DNA of 48,533 nucleotides from Verrucomicrobiia bacterium (GTDB taxonomy: Bacteria; Verrucomicrobiota; Verrucomicrobiia; Verrucomicrobiales; DEV007). The stretch covers positions 1 through 48,533 of the forward strand of contig JAGROX010000021.1 in NCBI GenBank assembly GCA_020440025.1, given 5' to 3'. A model generated the notes under the pieces. The model made no database searches, was not told the origin of the DNA, and saw nothing but the letters and a program-made list of their open reading frames with translations. Shown piece by piece: positions 5,242-46,721 of the stretch (within the stretch, counting starts at the first letter, position 1; each line of letters opens with the position of its first letter). The position numbers and the translations under genes are program-made.

Positions 5242-5287
5242 TTTTTCGGTCGGTGAAGGGATTGGCGGAAGCCGATCTTTCTTTTGA

Positions 5288-5324
5288 TTCAACCCTCTTT
5301 GGTCGTCGACCAAAGAGGGTTGAA
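5288..5324 (+). terminator. Perfect inverted repeat, terminator-like
   Basis: A 37-bp perfect palindrome: 18 paired bases on each side of one central T, starting TTCAACCCTCTTTGGTCG. It is followed within three bases by a CTTTTT run (5328-5332). It sits 46 bp after the sialidase stop and 69 bp before the next start, so it most likely ends the sialidase transcript. The stem is unusually long and symmetric, and it would work in either direction. Confidence 0.8.
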
Positions 5325-5392
5325 TGCTTTTTGGCGGGTAAGAATTCGGGCATTTTTTGCGACCTCAGCCAAAAAAGGCGGTTTGATTGGGC

Positions 5393-37478: not shown

Positions 37479-37919
37479 TTAAGTATCCGGACGTGGAGAG
37501 TCAGGAGCGAATACGAAACCGGAAGGTTCGCCGGTGATACGGGACAGCATCACCCGAGCCATGTCGGCGGCGGCGTTCTTGATGTGTTCGGCGCGTTCGC
37601 CGACAAAAAGGGAATCGACAGTGGCGAAAAAGAGCGTCTGCCAACGCTCGAACTGGACGCTTCCGATGGGCGTTCTCGCGCTGACTTCGAGATGAGGGCG
37701 GAGGGGATTCCCCCGGTAGGCTCCTGATCCAAAAATAATAGTCTCCCAGAAGTCTACCATTTTGGGGAGATGCTCATCCCAGTCGATGGAGGCAACATCG
37801 TTGAAGATGAACCCGAGCAAGTCGTCATCGCGAACCTTTTCGTAGAAGGAATCCACGAGGAGTCGCAGATCTTCGCGATCTCGGATATCTGGCAGAGGAG
37901 GGTAAGAGACGGCGGGCAT
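37479..37919 (-). CDS. Group III truncated haemoglobin
   Basis: A 146-residue 2-on-2 globin. The group III signature is clear: LVDSFYEKVRDDDLLGFIFNDVASIDWDEHLPKMVDFWETIIFGSGAYRGNPLRPHL. The His of RPHLEV is the probable proximal haem ligand, followed by FERWQTLFFATVDSLF. Members of group III (for example the Campylobacter Ctb protein) bind O2 and NO tightly and are induced under nitrosative stress. The start is 7 bp after the stop of the DUF3365 haem protein, so the two form an operon; the NsrR-like operator upstream of that operon supports a role in nitric-oxide handling. Cytoplasmic. Confidence 0.92.
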   Translation of the reverse strand: MPAVSYPPLPDIRDREDLRLLVDSFYEKVRDDDLLGFIFNDVASIDWDEHLPKMVDFWETIIFGSGAYRGNPLRPHLEVSARTPIGSVQFERWQTLFFATVDSLFVGERAEHIKNAAADMARVMLSRITGEPSGFVFAPDSPRPDT

Positions 37920-37926
37920 GAAAGGT

Positions 37927-38472
37927 TCAGTTTTCCGGTTTCTGGAGCGGAATAGAAATCGCGAGTCCAGCGACGCGATCCTCCAGGGAGGAGCGATGCG
38001 GCACGTGGCACTTCAGGCATTCGTTCTGCATTCGGATGGCGCCGACGAAGCGGAAATTTCCGCGCTCAATGCTCTCGTATTCGGTTTTTCCAGCGACAAG
38101 GGCGGCTGCGGCTGCTTTTTCGAATTCATCCTTGGGATCGTGGTCGACACTTTTGGTGGCATTCACTCCCAGCCAGCGAATTTCGATATTCCAACTGCGG
38201 GCAATTTCCTTGAAGACGTCCTCAAGGGATTGCGAAGGAAGACTGAGATCTTCGTCTCCACCGAAAAAGTCTCGATGCATCACCTGAAGCGCCCCGTGGA
38301 TGGTTTCGTGCAGGACTTTGGCTCGCCCGCGCGCTTCGTCAGCAGTGGTCGGGAGGTCCGATTTGACGTGGTTGGTGGCAATTTCCACACCGTTAGTTTC
38401 GGAGTCCGCTGCAAAGGTGGCGGGGGCTGGCAAGGCGCAGGAAAGGATGAGGGCAAAAGCGAGGATTCTCAT
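37927..38472 (-). CDS. DUF3365 (Tll0287-like) c-type haem protein
   Basis: A 181-residue exported haem protein. The start is the ATG at 38472 (MRILAFALILSCALPAPATFA is the signal peptide); an upstream frame to 38640 has no signal and crosses the operator, so it is rejected. The DUF3365/Tll0287-like domain is visible from about residue 50 (ETIHGALQVMHRDFF) through DPKDEFEKAA to the single haem site CLKCH at 152-156 near the C-terminal end. The family has a PAS-like fold holding one c-type haem and is suspected of redox or gas sensing. It is the first gene of an operon with a truncated haemoglobin and is preceded, 10 bp upstream of the ATG, by an NsrR-like operator. Confidence 0.87.
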   Translation of the reverse strand: MRILAFALILSCALPAPATFAADSETNGVEIATNHVKSDLPTTADEARGRAKVLHETIHGALQVMHRDFFGGDEDLSLPSQSLEDVFKEIARSWNIEIRWLGVNATKSVDHDPKDEFEKAAAAALVAGKTEYESIERGNFRFVGAIRMQNECLKCHVPHRSSLEDRVAGLAISIPLQKPEN

Positions 38473-38481
38473 GATGGTTGA

Positions 38482-38504
38482 AACTTGTACGGAGTATGCA
38501 ACAA
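38482..38504 (-). promoter_or_regulatory. Predicted NsrR operator upstream of DUF3365-globin operon
   Basis: A 23-bp imperfect inverted repeat of 11-1-11 layout; the plus strand begins AACTTGTAC and ends ATGCAACAA. The core TTGYAY-N5-RTRCAA is symmetric by purine/pyrimidine. It is embedded in a 36-bp block (38476-38511) that matches the block upstream of nsrR at 30 of 36 positions without gaps. The only flanking genes it can serve are the haem-protein/globin operon, whose ATG is 10 bp away, and the leftward LRR gene region. On the minus strand a CATACT within it could be a -10 element, so repressor binding would block RNA polymerase. Confidence 0.72.
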
Positions 38505-38639
38505 TAGCAACTCGCAAAGGCCGGGATGGAAGTGCGGAATCGCGTTCCCATTCGCAGGTTTCCCAAGCTTGATTTGCTCCATTCCTTTCGCCAACAATTT
38601 GCTGTTTCATCCCGACCTCTATCCGTGCCTCGCTCTGCA

Positions 38640-38857
38640 TTTGCTGGCGAGGCCGGGGTGCGAAGGCGAAGTCTTTCTTTCAGGAGCAATTTGTGGCTTG
38701 TCACGGCGAGAAAAAACACAAGGGTGATCTGCGCGTGAGTGGACTGGTCTTGGATGTTTTGTCATCCAAAGTTGATGACGCACTGACCGGGGGAAATCCT
38801 GAAGCGAATCATCATACGAAAAATGCCGCTCACGAAGGTTCCCGTGCCAATTCTAAT
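38640..38857 (+). pseudogene. Remnant of a Planctomycete-type cytochrome c (PSCyt1-like) domain
   Basis: In the plus-strand frame running into the LRR gene, the stretch KSFFQEQFVACHGEKKHKGDLRVSG (about 38670-38750) matches the N-terminal haem region of Planctomycete cytochrome domains, normally written F..HCVACHG.KKQKGDLRLD. Here Phe replaces the first Cys of the CxxCH site, and the block breaks off after DDALTGGNPEAN. No upstream signal peptide or complete domain is present. I read it as a decayed fragment next to the LRR gene. Confidence 0.55.
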
Positions 38858-39853
38858 ATGAAAACAACCGTTCTCCTTCTCACTTTGCTTCTCACATCGA
38901 ATGCCAAGGCACTCGATCCTCACGTCGGAGCCGTCGTCCGCATTGTCGAGGGCGCCAAGGGCAAGGTCGAAAAGACCGAGGATGGCCAGAGTCTGATCCT
39001 CGTGGATTTGGCCGTTCCCAATGCCGGTCCCCACGACCATCGGGAATCCGATCCCTATGATGCGGATTTTTTTGAGCATCTCGGGCACATTGCGACGTTG
39101 GAGTCGCTCAACATCATCTCGACAAAGATGAACGACGACTGGATCGCTCCGATCGGCAAACTCACCCAGTTGAAATCTCTCCGATTCACAAACAATGGGT
39201 CGCTCACCGACGCCGGAATGGAACAACTCGCTGGCCTGACCAATCTTGAGACCTTTTCCTTTGTCGGCACGAAAATGACAGGGTGTGCTTACGCGAAATT
39301 CGAGGGATTCACGAAGCTCACGAAAGTCAGTCATCGCGGCAGCAGCATAGATGACGAGGGGTTGAAACAGTTGTGCCAGCACCTCCCCAACCTTGAGAGC
39401 ATCAGCCTCGCTCACGCGAAGTTCACCGACGCGGGTGCGGTCCATCTCAAGAGGCTCACGAAATTGAAAGGTCTCGAACTTGGTACCCACAACGCCTCTC
39501 CAGCCTCCCTGAGTCATCTTGCCGGTCTCCCTCTCGAATATCTCCAACTCGGTGACGGTCTAGACGCGCCCGCTGGAATCTCTGCGATCAAAGCGATCTC
39601 CACTCTGAAGCGGGTCACGTTGACCAACTGCAAAGAATTGGACGACACCGGTCTAAAACTCGCCGCCGAACTCACCCAGCTTGAGCAACTCGAACTCGGC
39701 GGACTCGATCTCCCAGATGAGCGTCTTCCTCAATTGCAGGCCTTTTCCTTTCTGAAAGAACTGAAGCTCATCCGCCGTCCCCAAAGCTATCCCGAGGAGA
39801 CCCAGGCGAAGATTAAGGCTCTCCTTCCGATGGTAGCGGTGAAGTTTCAGTGA
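38858..39853 (+). CDS. Secreted leucine-rich repeat protein
   Basis: A 331-residue protein with signal peptide MKTTVLLLTLLLTSNAKA. The rest is about ten leucine-rich repeats of the bacterial LRR type: LTQLKSLRFTNNGSLTDAGMEQLAG, LTNLETFSFVGTKMTG, LPNLESISLAHAKFTDAGAVHLKR, LTKLKGLELGT and LTQLEQLELGGLDL. It is a likely periplasmic or surface binding protein. A GTG at 38693 opens the frame further upstream into a decayed cytochrome remnant, but the signal peptide fixes the start at 38858. It converges with the PQQ-like propeller gene, with 76 bp between stops. Confidence 0.85.
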   Translation: MKTTVLLLTLLLTSNAKALDPHVGAVVRIVEGAKGKVEKTEDGQSLILVDLAVPNAGPHDHRESDPYDADFFEHLGHIATLESLNIISTKMNDDWIAPIGKLTQLKSLRFTNNGSLTDAGMEQLAGLTNLETFSFVGTKMTGCAYAKFEGFTKLTKVSHRGSSIDDEGLKQLCQHLPNLESISLAHAKFTDAGAVHLKRLTKLKGLELGTHNASPASLSHLAGLPLEYLQLGDGLDAPAGISAIKAISTLKRVTLTNCKELDDTGLKLAAELTQLEQLELGGLDLPDERLPQLQAFSFLKELKLIRRPQSYPEETQAKIKALLPMVAVKFQ

Positions 39854-39929
39854 CTGTCGGTCTTACGGGCAACACCCTGTTTCTGACTCTCGGATTGAGC
39901 AGGTCAAGCGCGTCGCATTCGATCAGGAA

Positions 39930-42590
39930 CTAGCGGGTCTCCCAAGCGGGAGAGAGACGTTTGGCGTCTTCGCCGCAGACGGCGGACATGATCAGTCCAC
40001 TGGCTTGGGAGATGTAAAAGATGCGCCCGTTGGACACGGCGGAGCCGAGGCATTCGCGGGAGTCGATGGCGGGGCCGGTGGCGACCAACTTGTGACCGTT
40101 GCGGAGATCGATCATGTCCATGTTGGCTCCCATGAGGAAGGGCTCGGACAGGGTGAACCGAGTGCAGGCGTAGTCGAGGTCAAACTGGTAGGAAATCTTG
40201 CCGGTTTCGCGATCAAAGAGTTGGCAGAGCGAACCAATGGCGTTGGAGAAAAGAAACTGATCGCCGACGGAAACGACGTTGATGGCGGATTTGACCGGTT
40301 CGGATCGCCACACCAGGGAGCCGTCCTTGGCATCGAGACAATGAATGAAACGGTCTTCGGTCTCATCGTCCGGTTGATTGAATCCGCCGAGATAGAGGCG
40401 TCCATCCTTGGCGGTGAGCGTGCAGCCTCCGGTGACAAAGTAATCCGTCGTCTGCCAGCGCACTTCGCCGGTCTCGGGATTGATGGCCGCCGTGAGCCCG
40501 TTGACCTCCTGTTTCAAACCGCGACGTTTGAGTTTCTTGGCCTGGTAGCCGAAGAAAGTGGAATAGTAGAGTTCGCCTTCCATCAGGGCGATGCCGCAGT
40601 CGTTTCCGCCCGAGCCAATGTTGGAAAAGTCCTTTTCCCAGACCAGTTCTCCCGTCTCCACATTCCACGCCCAGATGCGGGGACGGCTGTTTCTGGGGTA
40701 GAAAGGATTGTTGTGGCTGTAGATGAAACTCATCACTTCCTTGTCGGGTGCGGTTTCCTCGACGGCCCGCCAGGCGAAGGCCTTTTCACTGCCTGCCGGC
40801 GCGTAGTCACCGGAACCGGACGCGTAGATGGCGAGATTTCCATGAATTACCGGCGGAAACTGACGGCTCCAACTGGCGGACCCGGTGAAGGGAGCCTCCC
40901 AGAGCATCTCGCCAGTGGCGGCATCGAGACATTGCATGACAGAGCCGTTGATACCGCTCTGAGGCACGATGATCTTTTCGTTGTGGTAGATCGGCGAGGT
41001 GAAGGAGAGAAATACGCCTGGGTGATACTTTCGCCAGAGCAGACGACCGGTTTCCTGCTCCACCGCGATGACCTGTCCCTCGGCGGTGTGGACATACATG
41101 CGGCCGCCGCCGCAGACGGGGATGTGTTTCACGGTTCCGTCGTTGCGCAGAATCCATCGCATCTTCAAGGGCGGTTCGATGCCCTGTTGATTGGAGTTGG
41201 TGGACCCCATGTTGCCGTAGTTGGTGTACCAATCGTATTTCGGATCGGTGTAGGATCCTGAAAGGCCGGTGCGGATCTGATGGATGCCGAGATTGTCGGC
41301 TTTCAATGCCACGTTTTTTCCCGGGGCGAGGACGTAGAGGTAGCCATCTTCGCCTCCAAAAACGACGCGCCCATCGGCAACCGCAGCCGGGGCAGTGACC
41401 GGATGACCGAAGAGGGTGGGGAACGTGAAGGGCTCTCCGTCGCCACTTAGTGGGGCGATGTGCAACGCTCCCTCGAGTCCACCGAAGATGGCGTGATTTT
41501 TCACCAATACCGGCGGAGAGATGGAAGCGAAACTGCTGAGCGATTTTGGCTCGGCAGTGTCCGATCGATGTCGGCAGAGGCCGAAGTCTTTCTCGGGTCG
41601 GGTGCGGTAGATGTCGTCGCCACGCAGGCTGACGGAACTGAAGCTCATCAGTCCGGGGGCATCGATGTAGGTCTCGCTTCCCGGCAGCATGGCGAACTCG
41701 AGGGTGTCATCATCCTTCAGGCGCAGGATTTCGGTGCGGGCGGCGTTGTCGCGGCGGTGCCATTGTACATAAGCCGCTCCATCCTCGGCGAGGCTCAGGC
41801 CAAAGGCGGCGGGATATTCGGAGCCATGCTGTTTGGGGATCTCCCCAATGATACGAACCCGTGGCTTTTCGCCTTCATCTTCGAGAAAAATGACGCGTCC
41901 CCCGGCAGGGATGACCACGGTCTTGCCATGGACCGCCAGGTTTCGCGAGGCGCAGAAGTGGTCTTTCCAGTTCACCCGGCCTTGCTTGTGGGCATACCAC
42001 TCTTCGCCGCTCCAGCGATTGCCGGGAAAGCCGATCACTTCTTTCACGAAGTCCCATCGCCATGATTCGATGCCATCGTGAGACAGCGCGAGCACCTGGG
42101 CTCCCAGGGTGACGAGGTAGACTCGGTCGCCGCTGACTACAGGAGTTGAAAAAATGGGATCGCGCAGATCGATTTCCCGGACGACGGAGCCATCGGCTCG
42201 ATTCAGGACATAGTAGATGCCTGCCGTGGTGCCGAAGTGGAGGTAGGGCCCGGCAATGGCGGGAGAGCTGACATTGTTGCAATTGCCGGGGCCGCCTTTG
42301 GTCGGCGTCTTCCAAGTCACTGCGAGAGTTTCTGCGTCGATGGCAAACGCCACTCCGGAGCCGTCGAGGACATAGATGGTTCCGTCGGCGATGACGGGGG
42401 CGGTGTAGATGCCATCGGTCAGGGGAACGGCTCCCTGGAATCCCAGTTTGGCCGGATCGATCTCGCGATCGGCGGCATTGCCAGAATGGCGCGAGTCGAA
42501 TTTGAACTGGGGCCAATCCTCGGCGAATCCGGGAAGGGGAAGGGCGGCGCCAAATACCAGTGCGACGATCGCAAGTCGGGAGAGTTTCAT
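39930..42590 (-). CDS. Secreted PQQ-like beta-propeller protein
   Basis: An 886-residue exported protein with signal peptide MKLSRLAIVALVFGAALPLPGFA, long enough for two propellers. Blade markers of PQQ-like repeats are frequent: DAETLAVTWKTPTKGG, RADGSVVREIDL, GEDGYLYVLAPG, QETGRLLWRKYHPG, ATGEMLWEAPFTG, VETGELVWEKDF, PETGEVRWQTTDY and DAKDGSLVWRSEPVK. GGPGNCNNVSSPAI near 100 is typical of the first propeller. No Trp-docking or catalytic quinoprotein motif is seen, so a structural or binding function is more likely than dehydrogenase activity. It starts 21 bp after the dipeptidase stop, likely one transcript. Confidence 0.88.
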   Translation of the reverse strand: MKLSRLAIVALVFGAALPLPGFAEDWPQFKFDSRHSGNAADREIDPAKLGFQGAVPLTDGIYTAPVIADGTIYVLDGSGVAFAIDAETLAVTWKTPTKGGPGNCNNVSSPAIAGPYLHFGTTAGIYYVLNRADGSVVREIDLRDPIFSTPVVSGDRVYLVTLGAQVLALSHDGIESWRWDFVKEVIGFPGNRWSGEEWYAHKQGRVNWKDHFCASRNLAVHGKTVVIPAGGRVIFLEDEGEKPRVRIIGEIPKQHGSEYPAAFGLSLAEDGAAYVQWHRRDNAARTEILRLKDDDTLEFAMLPGSETYIDAPGLMSFSSVSLRGDDIYRTRPEKDFGLCRHRSDTAEPKSLSSFASISPPVLVKNHAIFGGLEGALHIAPLSGDGEPFTFPTLFGHPVTAPAAVADGRVVFGGEDGYLYVLAPGKNVALKADNLGIHQIRTGLSGSYTDPKYDWYTNYGNMGSTNSNQQGIEPPLKMRWILRNDGTVKHIPVCGGGRMYVHTAEGQVIAVEQETGRLLWRKYHPGVFLSFTSPIYHNEKIIVPQSGINGSVMQCLDAATGEMLWEAPFTGSASWSRQFPPVIHGNLAIYASGSGDYAPAGSEKAFAWRAVEETAPDKEVMSFIYSHNNPFYPRNSRPRIWAWNVETGELVWEKDFSNIGSGGNDCGIALMEGELYYSTFFGYQAKKLKRRGLKQEVNGLTAAINPETGEVRWQTTDYFVTGGCTLTAKDGRLYLGGFNQPDDETEDRFIHCLDAKDGSLVWRSEPVKSAINVVSVGDQFLFSNAIGSLCQLFDRETGKISYQFDLDYACTRFTLSEPFLMGANMDMIDLRNGHKLVATGPAIDSRECLGSAVSNGRIFYISQASGLIMSAVCGEDAKRLSPAWETR

Positions 42591-42611
42591 GAGAAAAGAG
42601 ACAGCTGAAGT

Positions 42612-43970
42612 TCAGATTTTAGCGACGGCATCCACCATGCTGGCACGAGACACGCGCATCACGTTTCCGCCGAGGATCTTTTGAATGTCTTCATCGGAAT
42701 AGCCGCGTTGCACCAGACCCACGGTGAACATGGGCCAATTGGTCCAGGCAAGACTGGCGGCGGCTTCGGCGGTGGGAATGAAGTCGTCCTTGGGCCAGAG
42801 GGAACGGAAGGGCTCGCGTTTGCGGCGGAGTCCGCCGACAGCGGCTTTCTTATTTTCCTCGGCACTGTTGCGGGAGCCATAGGCGACATCGGTACCGATG
42901 GCGACGTGATCGACGCCGAACTTTTTCGCGACGTAGTCGATGTGGTCGAGGAAGGCGTTGATGTCGCCTTTGCCTCGGAGAAATCGCGAGATGCAACAGA
43001 TGCCGATGTATCCGTCGGTGTCGGCGATCGCCTTGATCACTTCGTCTGGTTTGCTGCGGATGTGAGCATAGAGCGCGCCGGCAACGGAGTGACTCGCCAC
43101 GACCGGCTTTTCCGAAATCTGAGCCGCTTCCAGACTGGTCTGCCAACCGGAGTGGGCGCAGTCGGGAATGACGCCGACCCGATTCATCTCGGCGATGACG
43201 GCCTTGCCAAAATCACTCAGCCCCGCGTTGGCTTCCTCGCCACAACCATCGCCGATCATGTTCCGCCGCTGATAGGTGAGATGCATCATGCGAATGCCGA
43301 GTTGGTAAAAGACCCGCAGGTAGCGGAGTTCGTCGGGAATCGATTCCCATTGCTGGGTCAGGGGCACGCCGTTGCCGGTGAAGTAAAGACAGTGGCGACC
43401 CGCCTTTTTCACCGCATCGATGTCATCGGGCGTCACCGCTTTGGAGACAAAGTCGCTGAGCATGTCGGTGGTGAAAGTGAATCGCGCCAGGCGCTTGAGC
43501 AGGCGCATGGGGTCCTGGCCTTCCTGCCCGGCATTTTGAAACACGCAGGTGACACCTGAAGCTCGCCATCCCTCGCGATACTCGCGTTGCTCAGCCGCAT
43601 CGGTGACGCAGCGGATCATGCCCATCTCCTCGCGCATGTCCTCGAGTTCGAGATCGGAGGCTCCGGCGAGAACGGCCGCCTTCAAGGCTTCGCCGTCCAC
43701 CGCAGATCGCGGAGAGAAACCATAGGAATCGAATACGAGGGAGTCGGCATGGAGTTGGAGTCCATGCTCCAGATCCTTCGGCGTGGGCTGGAGGATGGCC
43801 AAGGCAGCGTCCCGACCTTTCTGGATCGCGGGATTAAGATTTTCAGTGAGGGCCGCCACCGAATTTCCAGAAGGTTCCTCGACAGCGATTGCTGCCGTAG
43901 CGGCAGCGGCGGTAGTCCCGGTGACGATCAGGGGAGCGGCGGCGTTCTTGAAAAAATCTCTGCGTTCCAT
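42612..43970 (-). CDS. Exported membrane-dipeptidase-like enzyme (peptidase M19)
   Basis: A 452-residue protein that starts MERRDFFKNAAAPLIV, a twin-arginine (Tat) type signal. The M19 family is recognised from VFDSYGF, TGNGVPLTQQW, LGIRMMHLTYQRRNMIGDGCGE, DCAHSGWQTS, VVASHSVAGALY, VDHVAIGTDVAYGSRN and the C-terminal ILGGNVMRV. Metal ligands normally sit in an HxD pair near the N terminus, read here as H-A-D (LHADSLVFDS), and in the HS residues. The enzyme would cleave dipeptides or D-amino-acid-containing peptides outside the cytoplasm. An upstream ATG at 44039 is unlikely. It is followed by the PQQ-like propeller and preceded by a monohaem protein in the same direction. Confidence 0.88.
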   Translation of the reverse strand: MERRDFFKNAAAPLIVTGTTAAAATAAIAVEEPSGNSVAALTENLNPAIQKGRDAALAILQPTPKDLEHGLQLHADSLVFDSYGFSPRSAVDGEALKAAVLAGASDLELEDMREEMGMIRCVTDAAEQREYREGWRASGVTCVFQNAGQEGQDPMRLLKRLARFTFTTDMLSDFVSKAVTPDDIDAVKKAGRHCLYFTGNGVPLTQQWESIPDELRYLRVFYQLGIRMMHLTYQRRNMIGDGCGEEANAGLSDFGKAVIAEMNRVGVIPDCAHSGWQTSLEAAQISEKPVVASHSVAGALYAHIRSKPDEVIKAIADTDGYIGICCISRFLRGKGDINAFLDHIDYVAKKFGVDHVAIGTDVAYGSRNSAEENKKAAVGGLRRKREPFRSLWPKDDFIPTAEAAASLAWTNWPMFTVGLVQRGYSDEDIQKILGGNVMRVSRASMVDAVAKI

Positions 43971-44045
43971 GTTCCCATCGGGATAGCACGGGCGGGATTC
44001 GCCGGGCAATGGAAAGTTCGCCCGCTTCGCGCCATCCATGGGGCC

Positions 44046-45389
44046 TTAGTCGACCGAGCCCACCAAGGTTTTGGTCAACGGAAAGCCCGGCAGGGTTTCC
44101 TCCAGAATCTCCCGAATGCGTTCCCGCTCGGAACCGGAGAGGTGATCCCCGATGGTCCCGCTGTCGCGACCGAGCAGGATGTCATCGAGGCGCGTCAGGA
44201 TTTCGTGACTGAGTTCTTCGGGCAGGTTTTGAAAAGCCTCGGAGTAAATCATGTAGCTGCACCGGTATTTGAAGAGCCGGTCGAGCAACTGAAAATCGCG
44301 CAGGGACCGGCCTTCGCGATTCGGTCTGGCGGCATCTCCGAAAGCAGCCGCAAAGGTGCCCTTGGAATCGATCCCGCCCTCGGGAAGTGCGGCTTCATCC
44401 TGAAAGAGCAGGTATTCCAGAATGCGTTCGGCCTGGTGATGAATGATGCGGATGCAGGATTCGCTGAGACCGTTGGGATCGTCGAGACCGAGTTCCCGAT
44501 TCAGCTGGCGACTGCGATAGATGGCCGAGCGGACCGTGAAGTCGCCTTCGATGATTCGATTGTGAACCGCAGACTGATGCTCCATCACCATGAGGGCAAC
44601 GATGTCGCTGGTGGGAACGAGGTAGTCGGAGATGTCGAAAAACGACTCCAGCTTCTCGATGTTGGCCCCTGGCTCACGGTCAAAGCTTGCCCGGCCATCT
44701 GGCAGGGCTTCGGAAAAGATGTTGCCGAGATGGCGGGACTCGCCGTGGTATCCGGTCACGTACCAGCCACCCCACCGGTCCTCGAAGGGCGTGGTGTGAT
44801 CCACACTGAAACTGCCCGCCGAAAAGATGGGCTGACCATTTTCCTCCACATAGAGCGAGCGGATCACGGTGCCGGGACGACCACCGGTGCGTCCACCAGC
44901 GTGGCAGGAAAAGCATTCTGCCGATTCCTGAAAGATCTCGACTTTGCCCGCGTTGGGATCGCGCTCCAGCAGGTAAAAGACCAGTCCCAGCTTGGGATCG
45001 GTGGACATGATCTCGAACTTGTTGCTCCCGTGCGACCACCCGAAATACAGGTCGTCGCTGAAATACAGAGCGCGAGGTTGCTTGGGGTTGATGTGGGAAT
45101 TCTGGAGACTGGTCTTGGAAAAAACCAGAGTTTGTGAGGCGGCGGGCACCTCAAGAATTCTGAGCAGTTCGCCGACAAAGGCTTTCTCGGGAAGGGTGGC
45201 GTCGAGATGGACCGTGCCGTCCTTCAGCTGATCGCGAAGCCTGGCAATGCGATCGGTCGGAGTCGTCTTCGAATAGTTGATCGGCGGCAGATCGAAGGTG
45301 TCCTCGGCCACCGCCTGAGGCGCGGCGGGAATCAGCCAGATCAGCGCGGCGAGGGCGCCGAGGTAACAGGGTTGAGTCAGGGAGTGCAC
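44046..45389 (-). CDS. Exported monohaem c-type protein of unknown family
   Basis: A 447-residue protein starting from a GTG at 45389, with a signal region (LGALAALIWLIPAAPQAVA). There is a single haem-binding motif CFSCH at 159-163 in the context QESAECFSCHAGGRTGGRPGTVIRS. The remainder is mostly soluble and helical with no second haem. I do not recognise a named family; similar single-haem proteins are known only as hypothetical in PVC bacteria. It lies 75 bp downstream of nsrR on the same strand and 75 bp before the dipeptidase start, so it may be part of the nsrR transcript. Confidence 0.78.
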   Translation of the reverse strand: MHSLTQPCYLGALAALIWLIPAAPQAVAEDTFDLPPINYSKTTPTDRIARLRDQLKDGTVHLDATLPEKAFVGELLRILEVPAASQTLVFSKTSLQNSHINPKQPRALYFSDDLYFGWSHGSNKFEIMSTDPKLGLVFYLLERDPNAGKVEIFQESAECFSCHAGGRTGGRPGTVIRSLYVEENGQPIFSAGSFSVDHTTPFEDRWGGWYVTGYHGESRHLGNIFSEALPDGRASFDREPGANIEKLESFFDISDYLVPTSDIVALMVMEHQSAVHNRIIEGDFTVRSAIYRSRQLNRELGLDDPNGLSESCIRIIHHQAERILEYLLFQDEAALPEGGIDSKGTFAAAFGDAARPNREGRSLRDFQLLDRLFKYRCSYMIYSEAFQNLPEELSHEILTRLDDILLGRDSGTIGDHLSGSERERIREILEETLPGFPLTKTLVGSVD

Positions 45390-45464
45390 AGGGTCAGGTG
45401 GTTGGGGCCGGGCTGATGTCAGTGTGAATGAGAGCGAGGGGACGCACGACGGATGAACAGGGAA

Positions 45465-45935
45465 TTACCCCGCATTTTTTGTGGTCAATAGGCCTCCGGA
45501 ACCGCCATCGAGAGCCGAAAGCACTGCTCTTCGATCGGCCACGATGTCGGCGAGAGTGGTCTCTTCGAGGGTAGCGAGAAAGGCTCGGGTCGCGTCAGAG
45601 AGGACGCCCCGGAGGACACACACAGGAGTGAGACGACATTGATTTTTTCCGTCTTTCTGAAAGCACTCGGCCATCTCGAAGCCGGGTTCGGTAGCGCGTA
45701 CGATTTCGGCCACGGTGATGTCCTCCGCCGGTTTGCCGAGACGGATGCCGCCGCCTCTTCCTCGCGTCGTGCTCAGGTAGTCGAGATGCCCGAGTTTTCG
45801 CACCACCTGAATGAGATGATTGCGCGAAATTCCGTAGGCCTCCGCAAGCTCAGTCAATGAAACTTGCTCAGGCGCACGGGCTGCGGCATAAATGAGAACC
45901 CGCAGGGAGTAGTCGGTGAAGGTGCTTAAATGCAT
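45465..45935 (-). CDS. nsrR: Rrf2-family nitric-oxide-responsive regulator NsrR
   Basis: A 156-residue winged-helix repressor. The N terminus MHLSTFTDYSLRVLIYAAARA and helix-turn-helix LTELAEAYGISRNHLIQVVRKLG, followed by the wing TTRGRGGGIRLGKPAEDI, match NsrR closely. The cluster region reads ECFQKDGKNQCRLTPVC, giving Cys91, Cys100 and Cys106 (C-x8-C-x5-C), the ligands of the NO-sensitive iron-sulfur cluster; IscR has a different spacing (C-x5-C-x5-C) and surrounding residues. NsrR represses its targets until NO destroys the cluster. The ATG at 45935 is chosen; an ATG at 45986 would cross the operator. The 36-bp operator block just upstream implies autoregulation. Confidence 0.88.
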   Translation of the reverse strand: MHLSTFTDYSLRVLIYAAARAPEQVSLTELAEAYGISRNHLIQVVRKLGHLDYLSTTRGRGGGIRLGKPAEDITVAEIVRATEPGFEMAECFQKDGKNQCRLTPVCVLRGVLSDATRAFLATLEETTLADIVADRRAVLSALDGGSGGLLTTKNAG

Positions 45936-45947
45936 TTTCTTGGTTGA

Positions 45948-45970
45948 AAGGTGTACTGATAATGCAACAA
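45948..45970 (+). promoter_or_regulatory. Predicted NsrR operator between nsrR and dihaem cytochrome gene
   Basis: A 23-bp imperfect inverted repeat with 11-1-11 layout; the plus strand begins AAGGTGTACTG and ends ATAATGCAACAA. Compared with the NsrR site described for proteobacteria (RTGYAT/ATRCAY core, 11-1-11), about 17 of 22 defined positions agree by my hand comparison. It sits in the 36-bp block 45942-45977, filling nearly all of the 42-bp gap between the divergent starts, so binding should control both genes. The same block, 30/36 identical, lies upstream of the DUF3365/globin operon. Confidence 0.78.
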
Positions 45971-45977
45971 TTGCAAG

Positions 45978-46721
45978 ATGGCGCATTCAAGTTTTCCTCA
46001 TCAGCGGTTCCGTCTGGCGATTTTGATGGCTTCCATGGTGGCTGTCACATCAGTCTGGTCACAGGAGGACGATCCTGCTCCCGTTACAGAATCCGAGGCT
46101 CCTTTTGCTTCAGCGGCTGAAGGCGAGGCGGATCTCGAGGCGGGCAAGGCGCGATACCAACAGGTGTGTGCGCAATGTCATGGCGAGCGGGGCGAGGGAA
46201 ATTTTCAACTGAAGGCGCCATCGATCGCGAATCTTCCCGATTGGTATGTGGCGGGGCAGATCGGCAAATTTCAAAAGGATTGGCGTGGGTCGCGTCCCGA
46301 GGATGTGCCGGGAAATCTGATGCATGCCATTGCCATGTCACTGGACCCAGTGGCAATTCGGGATGTGGCGGGTTACATCCGATCCATGACCCTGGTTCCC
46401 ACGGTGGTGACGCTGAAGGGCGGTAATCCGGAAAGAGGGGCCGAATTGTTTCGCGAACGTTGCATGGAGTGCCATCGATACAATGGACGCGGCGAACCTG
46501 CGTTTCGCAGTGCTCAACTGATCGGTCTGCAGGATTGGTACATCGTTTCGCAGTTGAAGAAGTTTCGCGACGGCATTCGCGGCGCGCACGAGAACGATGC
46601 CGAAGGCACGAAGATGCATCGCATCAGCGAACGCATGACCGACGGGAGTTTCCATGACGTCGCCTCTCACATCGCCGAGCTAGCTGAGAAATATGCCGTG
46701 GAGCGTCCGCGTCGGCGCTGA
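45978..46721 (+). CDS. Exported dihaem cytochrome c
   Basis: A 247-residue protein with a signal peptide (RFRLAILMASMVAVTSVWS) and two cytochrome c domains. Haem sites are CAQCHGERGEG (64-68) and CMECHRYNGRG (162-166); the first domain has a likely axial Met in MHAIAMSLDP and the second in MHRISERMTDGS. The class resembles cytochrome c4 or dihaem c-type electron carriers, which pass electrons to terminal oxidases or to NO and nitrite reductases. The ATG at 45978 directly abuts the operator block, so the mRNA may be leaderless or very short. It is divergent from nsrR. Confidence 0.9.
   Translation: MAHSSFPHQRFRLAILMASMVAVTSVWSQEDDPAPVTESEAPFASAAEGEADLEAGKARYQQVCAQCHGERGEGNFQLKAPSIANLPDWYVAGQIGKFQKDWRGSRPEDVPGNLMHAIAMSLDPVAIRDVAGYIRSMTLVPTVVTLKGGNPERGAELFRERCMECHRYNGRGEPAFRSAQLIGLQDWYIVSQLKKFRDGIRGAHENDAEGTKMHRISERMTDGSFHDVASHIAELAEKYAVERPRRR

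Follow-up and report, generated by a model that had tools for sequence, protein, structure and literature searches.

A predicted NsrR-type nitric oxide regulon of haem-protein genes in a Verrucomicrobiia bacterium

The window analysed here is a 48,533-nucleotide stretch of DNA from a Verrucomicrobiia bacterium, and it carries two similar 36-bp elements next to genes for haem proteins. The two elements are very probably operators for the NsrR-type [Fe-S] repressor encoded beside them, which would hold back the haem-protein genes until nitric oxide (NO) releases the repressor. The elements, the sites within them, their conservation and the identities of the adjoining genes were established by computation. 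A preliminary description of the window had predicted an NsrR regulon with a globin, a DUF3365 haem protein and a dihaem cytochrome, and this prediction was well supported: the operator core is kept at the nsrR/cytochrome gap and at DUF3365 in relatives, lies ahead of separately placed globin genes in one congener, and has a further site at nirK in the same genome. The nirK gene and the 44046-45389 gene, both absent from that description, would be part of the predicted regulon. The main features are as follows.

45465..45935, minus strand: NsrR-type Rrf2 regulator, 156 aa, with Asp8 and C-X8-C-X5-C (PF02082, E 5e-35)
45948..45970, minus strand: operator 1 (predicted), core 45950-45968 GTTGCATTATCAGTACACC, in the gap that nsrR shares with the divergent dihaem cytochrome c gene
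45978..46721, plus strand: dihaem cytochrome c, read away from nsrR on the other side of operator 1 (PF00034, two matched stretches)
38482..38504, minus strand: operator 2 (predicted), core 38484-38502 GTTGCATACTCCGTACAAG, ahead of the DUF3365 and globin genes
37927..38472, minus strand: DUF3365/Tll0287-like (sCache_heme) stand-alone exported c-haem protein (PF11845, E 1.5e-8)
37479..37919, minus strand: group III truncated haemoglobin, following DUF3365 after 7 bp (2ig3, Campylobacter Ctb, E 2e-14)
44046..45389, minus strand: exported mono-haem (CXXCH) protein, family undescribed, encoded downstream of nsrR as its partner

The 36-bp element pair

The elements at 38476-38511 and 45942-45977 were identical at 29 of 36 positions without gaps. 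The pair had been reported at these positions with 30/36 identity; the pair exists, but 30/36 is reached only when both copies are moved one base earlier (38475/45941). Among direct pairs in the window this was the only one to reach 30/36, and the chance expectation for the window was 0.0007 pairs at 30/36 and 0.009 pairs at 29/36. The element pair is real and beyond chance. The element ends are sharp, as had been noted before, since the neighbouring 36-mers agree at 10/36 and 4/36 positions. Element 1 fills the 42 bp that separate the Rrf2 gene (start 45935) from the cytochrome gene (start 45978), and element 2 lies 3 bp ahead of the DUF3365 start codon (38472), which agrees with the placement given in the preliminary description. 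The 11-1-11 inverted repeat proposed there was overstated. In the window copies 4 and 5 of the 11 arm positions paired, with 4/7 in the 7-N5-7 core, and with so weak a dyad (4-5/11) the palindrome alone, judged from the window, is poor evidence. The dyad was clearer in relatives, where GATGTATTGCAAGTACATC pairs 6/7.

Element 2 could also be a functionless chance or duplicated copy, for example part of a small repeat, as the 36-bp similarity exceeds the 23-bp operator. This is extremely improbable: just these two copies were found at up to 3 mismatches in the 6.38-Mb genome, DUF3365 orthologues retain the site despite differing flanks, and the extra length holds the promoter-like TTGAAA and AACAAT.

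Conservation of the operators

The source genome (G000; 6.38 Mb, 87% complete) was compared with related genomes, which carry the other G labels. Seven other genomes, from 3 genera, carried the 27-bp core of operator 1 (pattern TTGTTGYATNNNNNGTACANSTTTCAA) with 0 mismatches, directly before nsrR in the nsrR/cytochrome gap. The divergent nsrR/cytochrome pair itself was kept in G001, G002, G003, G009, G018, G023, and G030. Some of the more distant nsrR orthologues showed a related sequence just before the gene, such as ATTGCATCTAAAATACATC, and in G037 GATGCATTTCCAATACATC was located between nsrR and a divergent YHS-globin gene. For operator 2, the core was found directly upstream of the DUF3365 orthologues in G001, G002, G003, and G018, while G015 had GATGTATTGCAAGTACATC at this place. 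The DUF3365-upstream sites scored 13-14/14 in these five genomes and were weaker in G034 (12/14).

A hold-out matrix, for which seven nsrR operators were taken from other genomes and none from the source genome, ranked operator 1 first (39.4 bits) and operator 2 second (30.4 bits) in the window, with the third at -1.8. The published NsrR consensus is gATGyAT-N5-ATrCATc (PMC1274295). The operators matched it at 10-12/14 positions with identical N5 spacing, and the match was near-perfect in G015 and G037. The change in this lineage is A2 to T in one half-site.

Promoter-like sequences overlap both operators.

45944..45971, plus strand: TTGAAA-16-AACAAT, a sigma-70-like promoter that overlaps operator 1 and faces the cytochrome gene (9/12 matches, shuffles mean 0.2; consensus match only)
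38478..38505, plus strand: TTGAAA-16-AACAAT promoter-like sequence, overlapping operator 2, away from DUF3365 (9/12 matches, shuffles mean 0.0; consensus match only)

The first of these puts the cytochrome start at about the ATG. The orientation of the second would suit an operator 2 that serves a plus strand transcript (LRR ORF, or open reading frame, 38861-39853) and not the DUF3365-globin pair. We give this little probability, as the site stays with DUF3365 in G001, G002, G003, G015, and G018, and in G003 DUF3365 comes directly after the PQQ gene without an LRR gene. With operator 2 assigned to the DUF3365-globin pair, the DUF3365 promoter must run opposite to the promoter-like sequence.

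Whole-genome search and nirK

Genome searches were made with the exact core pattern and reversed-pattern controls. The exact core GTTGYATNNNNNRTACAHS, which had been widened to accommodate sites already known, gave 3 matches in the source genome against 0 for the reversed control, namely the two window sites and G000:C78:5524-5542. This third site lies upstream of the copper nitrite reductase gene nirK (TIGR02376, 355 bits vs. a cut-off of 296), whose product (G000:C78:4248-5542) carries a C-terminal cytochrome c domain. In Nitrosomonas and Neisseria, NsrR is known or predicted to control nirK (PMC1274295). In four congeneric genomes, 11 of 11 exact matches were at nsrR/cytochrome, DUF3365, globin, or nirK genes, with 0 in the control. 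The preliminary description had named as support a genome-wide scan with few further matches, all upstream of NO-related genes, and the exact-pattern search, which followed that check in outline, agreed with this, the sole extra match in the source genome being the one before nirK.

The group III globin gene of G001 is not beside DUF3365 and has its own operator copy, and an exported PF01152 globin of the same genome has another copy upstream (G001:C129:3252-3270). Of all the evidence that the globin is a probable regulon target, these separate sites are the strongest. The exact matches in G018:C18 and G006:C55 were inside ORFs and were counted as chance. The core with one mismatch was dropped, as its match count was near the control level and included repeats in G002.

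NsrR-type regulator

The regulator belongs to the Rrf2 family by its PF02082 score (120.9 bits, cut-off 30). Its best solved relative was Streptomyces coelicolor NsrR (5n07, E 7.8e-19), followed by IscR (1.6e-8). Asp8 and the three Cys, the [4Fe-4S] ligands of S. coelicolor NsrR, all aligned with 5n07 and the pattern was kept in close orthologues, which upholds the NsrR type assigned earlier. Orthologues in the genus and family showed 61-83% identity. Among the NCBIfam equivalogs NsrR was at the top with 128.9 bits, under its cut-off of 182 (a naming threshold and not a biochemical feature), and RirA was close at 122.7 bits. With the score below the cut-off and near RirA, the sequence alone would not settle the name of the regulator. 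The NCBIfam NsrR model PRK11014 is built on enterobacterial-type NsrR.

The sites could also be true operators of this Rrf2 protein whose main signal is iron, O2, superoxide, or Fe-S status, as in RirA- or IscR-like regulation. The Rrf2 family is common to all candidates and the RirA score is nearly equal to that of NsrR, but this explanation is unlikely, since the Asp8 and Cys pattern aligns with NsrR, the operator matches the NsrR consensus, nirK and globins are among the predicted targets, and NnrS and NirK adjoin the orthologue in G006. In that genome a run of nsrR, YHS-globin, 44046-type gene, and group III globin lies beside them.

YHS-domain/globin fusions were also observed beside or near nsrR at L115 7511-8212, L077 4918-5607, and L134 5513-6085, two of them with near-perfect NsrR-type operators.

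DUF3365 protein, globin and other NO enzymes

The DUF3365 protein matched PF11845 with 35.6 bits (cut-off 24.1), and its CXXCH is present as CLKCH. After the signal peptide, the CLKCH cysteines were the only ones in the readable orthologues; the axial Cys, the criterion of the Cys/His-ligated DUF3365/Tll0287 subgroup, is absent. A 2026 preprint places the DUF3365 family in the Cache superfamily, which replaces the earlier label of PAS-like (PMC12889525). In the same work a stand-alone member with Cys/His ligation bound NO weakly, a membrane-anchored member without the Cys bound NO tightly, and C59A alone gave no slow NO release (PMC12889525). As the proteins of the window lineage are stand-alone and without the Cys, weak and tight NO binding are both possible.

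The best structural relative of the globin was 2ig3 (E 2e-14), with the next best at 0.016, and the haem-pocket positions Tyr, His, His, and Trp were conserved in the alignment. Both results are in line with the group III identity given before. The idea that this globin is used instead of flavohaemoglobin stood in part: no Hmp-type globin domain (PF00042) was found in the source genome, but two congeners have such domains, and as the source genome is 87% complete the missing PF00042 globin is not proof of absence. The qNOR domain PF22085 was found in none of 7 genomes, with the control matched in one genome only. By eye, the haem-copper oxidases of the source genome look like aa3 and cbb3, with no NorB, and G002 has a NorB-like haem-copper oxidase.

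Proposed mechanism

We infer binding, NO as the signal, repression, and the role of each haem protein as follows. Without NO, the repressor would occupy operators overlapping promoters and so repress four sets of genes: nsrR itself and the 44046-45389 c-haem gene; the dihaem cytochrome c gene on the other side of operator 1; the DUF3365 gene with the group III globin gene; and nirK, elsewhere in the genome. NO would nitrosylate the cluster and the repressor would leave the DNA, a release predicted from NsrR biochemistry. Haem proteins would then be made that may bind, oxidise, or pass electrons to NO.

Several observations weigh against this mechanism. The nirK site is known from the source genome only, and the other nirK genes searched were without such a site. 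The half-sites of the window deviate from the consensus and pair poorly. The sole stand-alone DUF3365 protein tested in the preprint was a weak NO binder (PMC12889525). The promoter-like sequence at operator 2 that faces away from DUF3365, and the NCBIfam NsrR score under its cut-off with RirA close behind, count on the same side.

Undescribed c-haem family and neighbouring genes

The 44046-45389 protein had no match in Pfam, NCBIfam, or PHROG, and its family no consistent one. A 44046-type gene partners nsrR in most orthologues (at least 12 genomes). The family has at least 575 relatives, in Verrucomicrobiota and Planctomycetota by taxon assignment of the best 80, and shows one invariant CXXCH, an invariant WGGWYV, and further invariant residues. 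At these best 80 loci an NsrR-type gene was nearby in about 18, another Rrf2 subgroup in about 20 (mostly Planctomycetota), and a DUF3365 gene in 9. In the Planctomycetota loci L175, L176, L181, L217, L226, and L230 the 44046-type gene was near DUF3365 and an Rrf2 subgroup with CPLG...LCPLH, without the NsrR pattern.

An AlphaFold model of the 44046 protein was obtained with pLDDT 93.4 and pTM 0.91, and Foldseek with this good model gave no PDB match at E<=0.001. The best VIA Z was 3.7, and the haem enzyme indoleamine 2,3-dioxygenase filled several of the top rows; this is within noise and shows neither kinship nor a new fold. An earlier model from 13 sequences was poor and its fold search meaningless. 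Tentatively, and with considerable doubt, the protein might be a periplasmic NO-converting or NO-sensing enzyme that partners the dihaem cytochrome and DUF3365 and replaces Hmp and NO reductase (NOR) where NirK but no NOR is present.

Two further genes lie in the nsrR-to-DUF3365 stretch.

42612..43970, minus strand: membrane-dipeptidase-like gene (family by eye)
39930..42590, minus strand: PQQ-repeat-like protein gene (family by eye)

The gene order in G003 (nsrR, 44046 gene, dipeptidase, PQQ, DUF3365) matches the window, and in G015 the PQQ gene adjoins DUF3365. Between the PQQ gene and DUF3365 in the window sits the LRR ORF, which with an extended N-terminus MACHGEKKHKGDL covers 38693-39853 (plus strand) and resembles a planctomycete-type cytochrome fragment. 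Elsewhere, at 5282-5330, a near-perfect inverted repeat around CCTCTTTGGTCGTCGACCAAAGAGG is perhaps a terminator.

Comparison with known systems

The type of system is already known: NsrR regulons have been described, and in Legionella NsrR controls a truncated globin. The members that look new to an NsrR regulon are DUF3365, the dihaem cytochrome, and the 44046 family. The target set was without precedent in the literature searched, where no paper combined NsrR and DUF3365 and no NO-response regulon was described in Verrucomicrobiota. The predicted regulon would supply one for this phylum and place the stand-alone DUF3365 haem proteins, which are poorly understood, within a regulated response to NO. 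It also makes a large undescribed c-haem family of Verrucomicrobiota and Planctomycetota a candidate for NO handling, and both groups take part in nitrogen cycling.

Like Campylobacter Ctb (2ig3), the globin is a group III truncated globin with the haem-pocket residues kept. NssR, an activator of the Crp-Fnr type, controls Ctb, whereas an Rrf2 repressor is predicted here.

The predicted regulon resembles those of beta/gamma-proteobacteria, Bacillus, and Streptomyces in its Rrf2 protein with NsrR cluster ligands, N5 operator, and autoregulation, and shares nirK as a target with Nitrosomonas and Neisseria (PMC1274295). Unlike in known NsrR regulons, the source genome showed no Hmp-type globin domain, a DUF3365 c-haem protein, a dihaem cytochrome, and a c-haem family not described before are among the predicted targets, and the half-site GTTGYAT replaces gATGyAT. 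The NsrR-glbN operon of Legionella pneumophila likewise has a truncated globin under NsrR in an organism without hmp, with a heme-containing cyanoglobin and ferredoxin reductase in place of the group III globin and c-haem protein seen here (PMC1274295). Tll0287 and the sCache_heme protein of P. putida are, like the DUF3365 protein here, exported stand-alone domains with CXXCH; the window lineage differs from them in lacking the axial Cys, which is also absent from the NO-binding P. azotoformans protein (PMC12889525).

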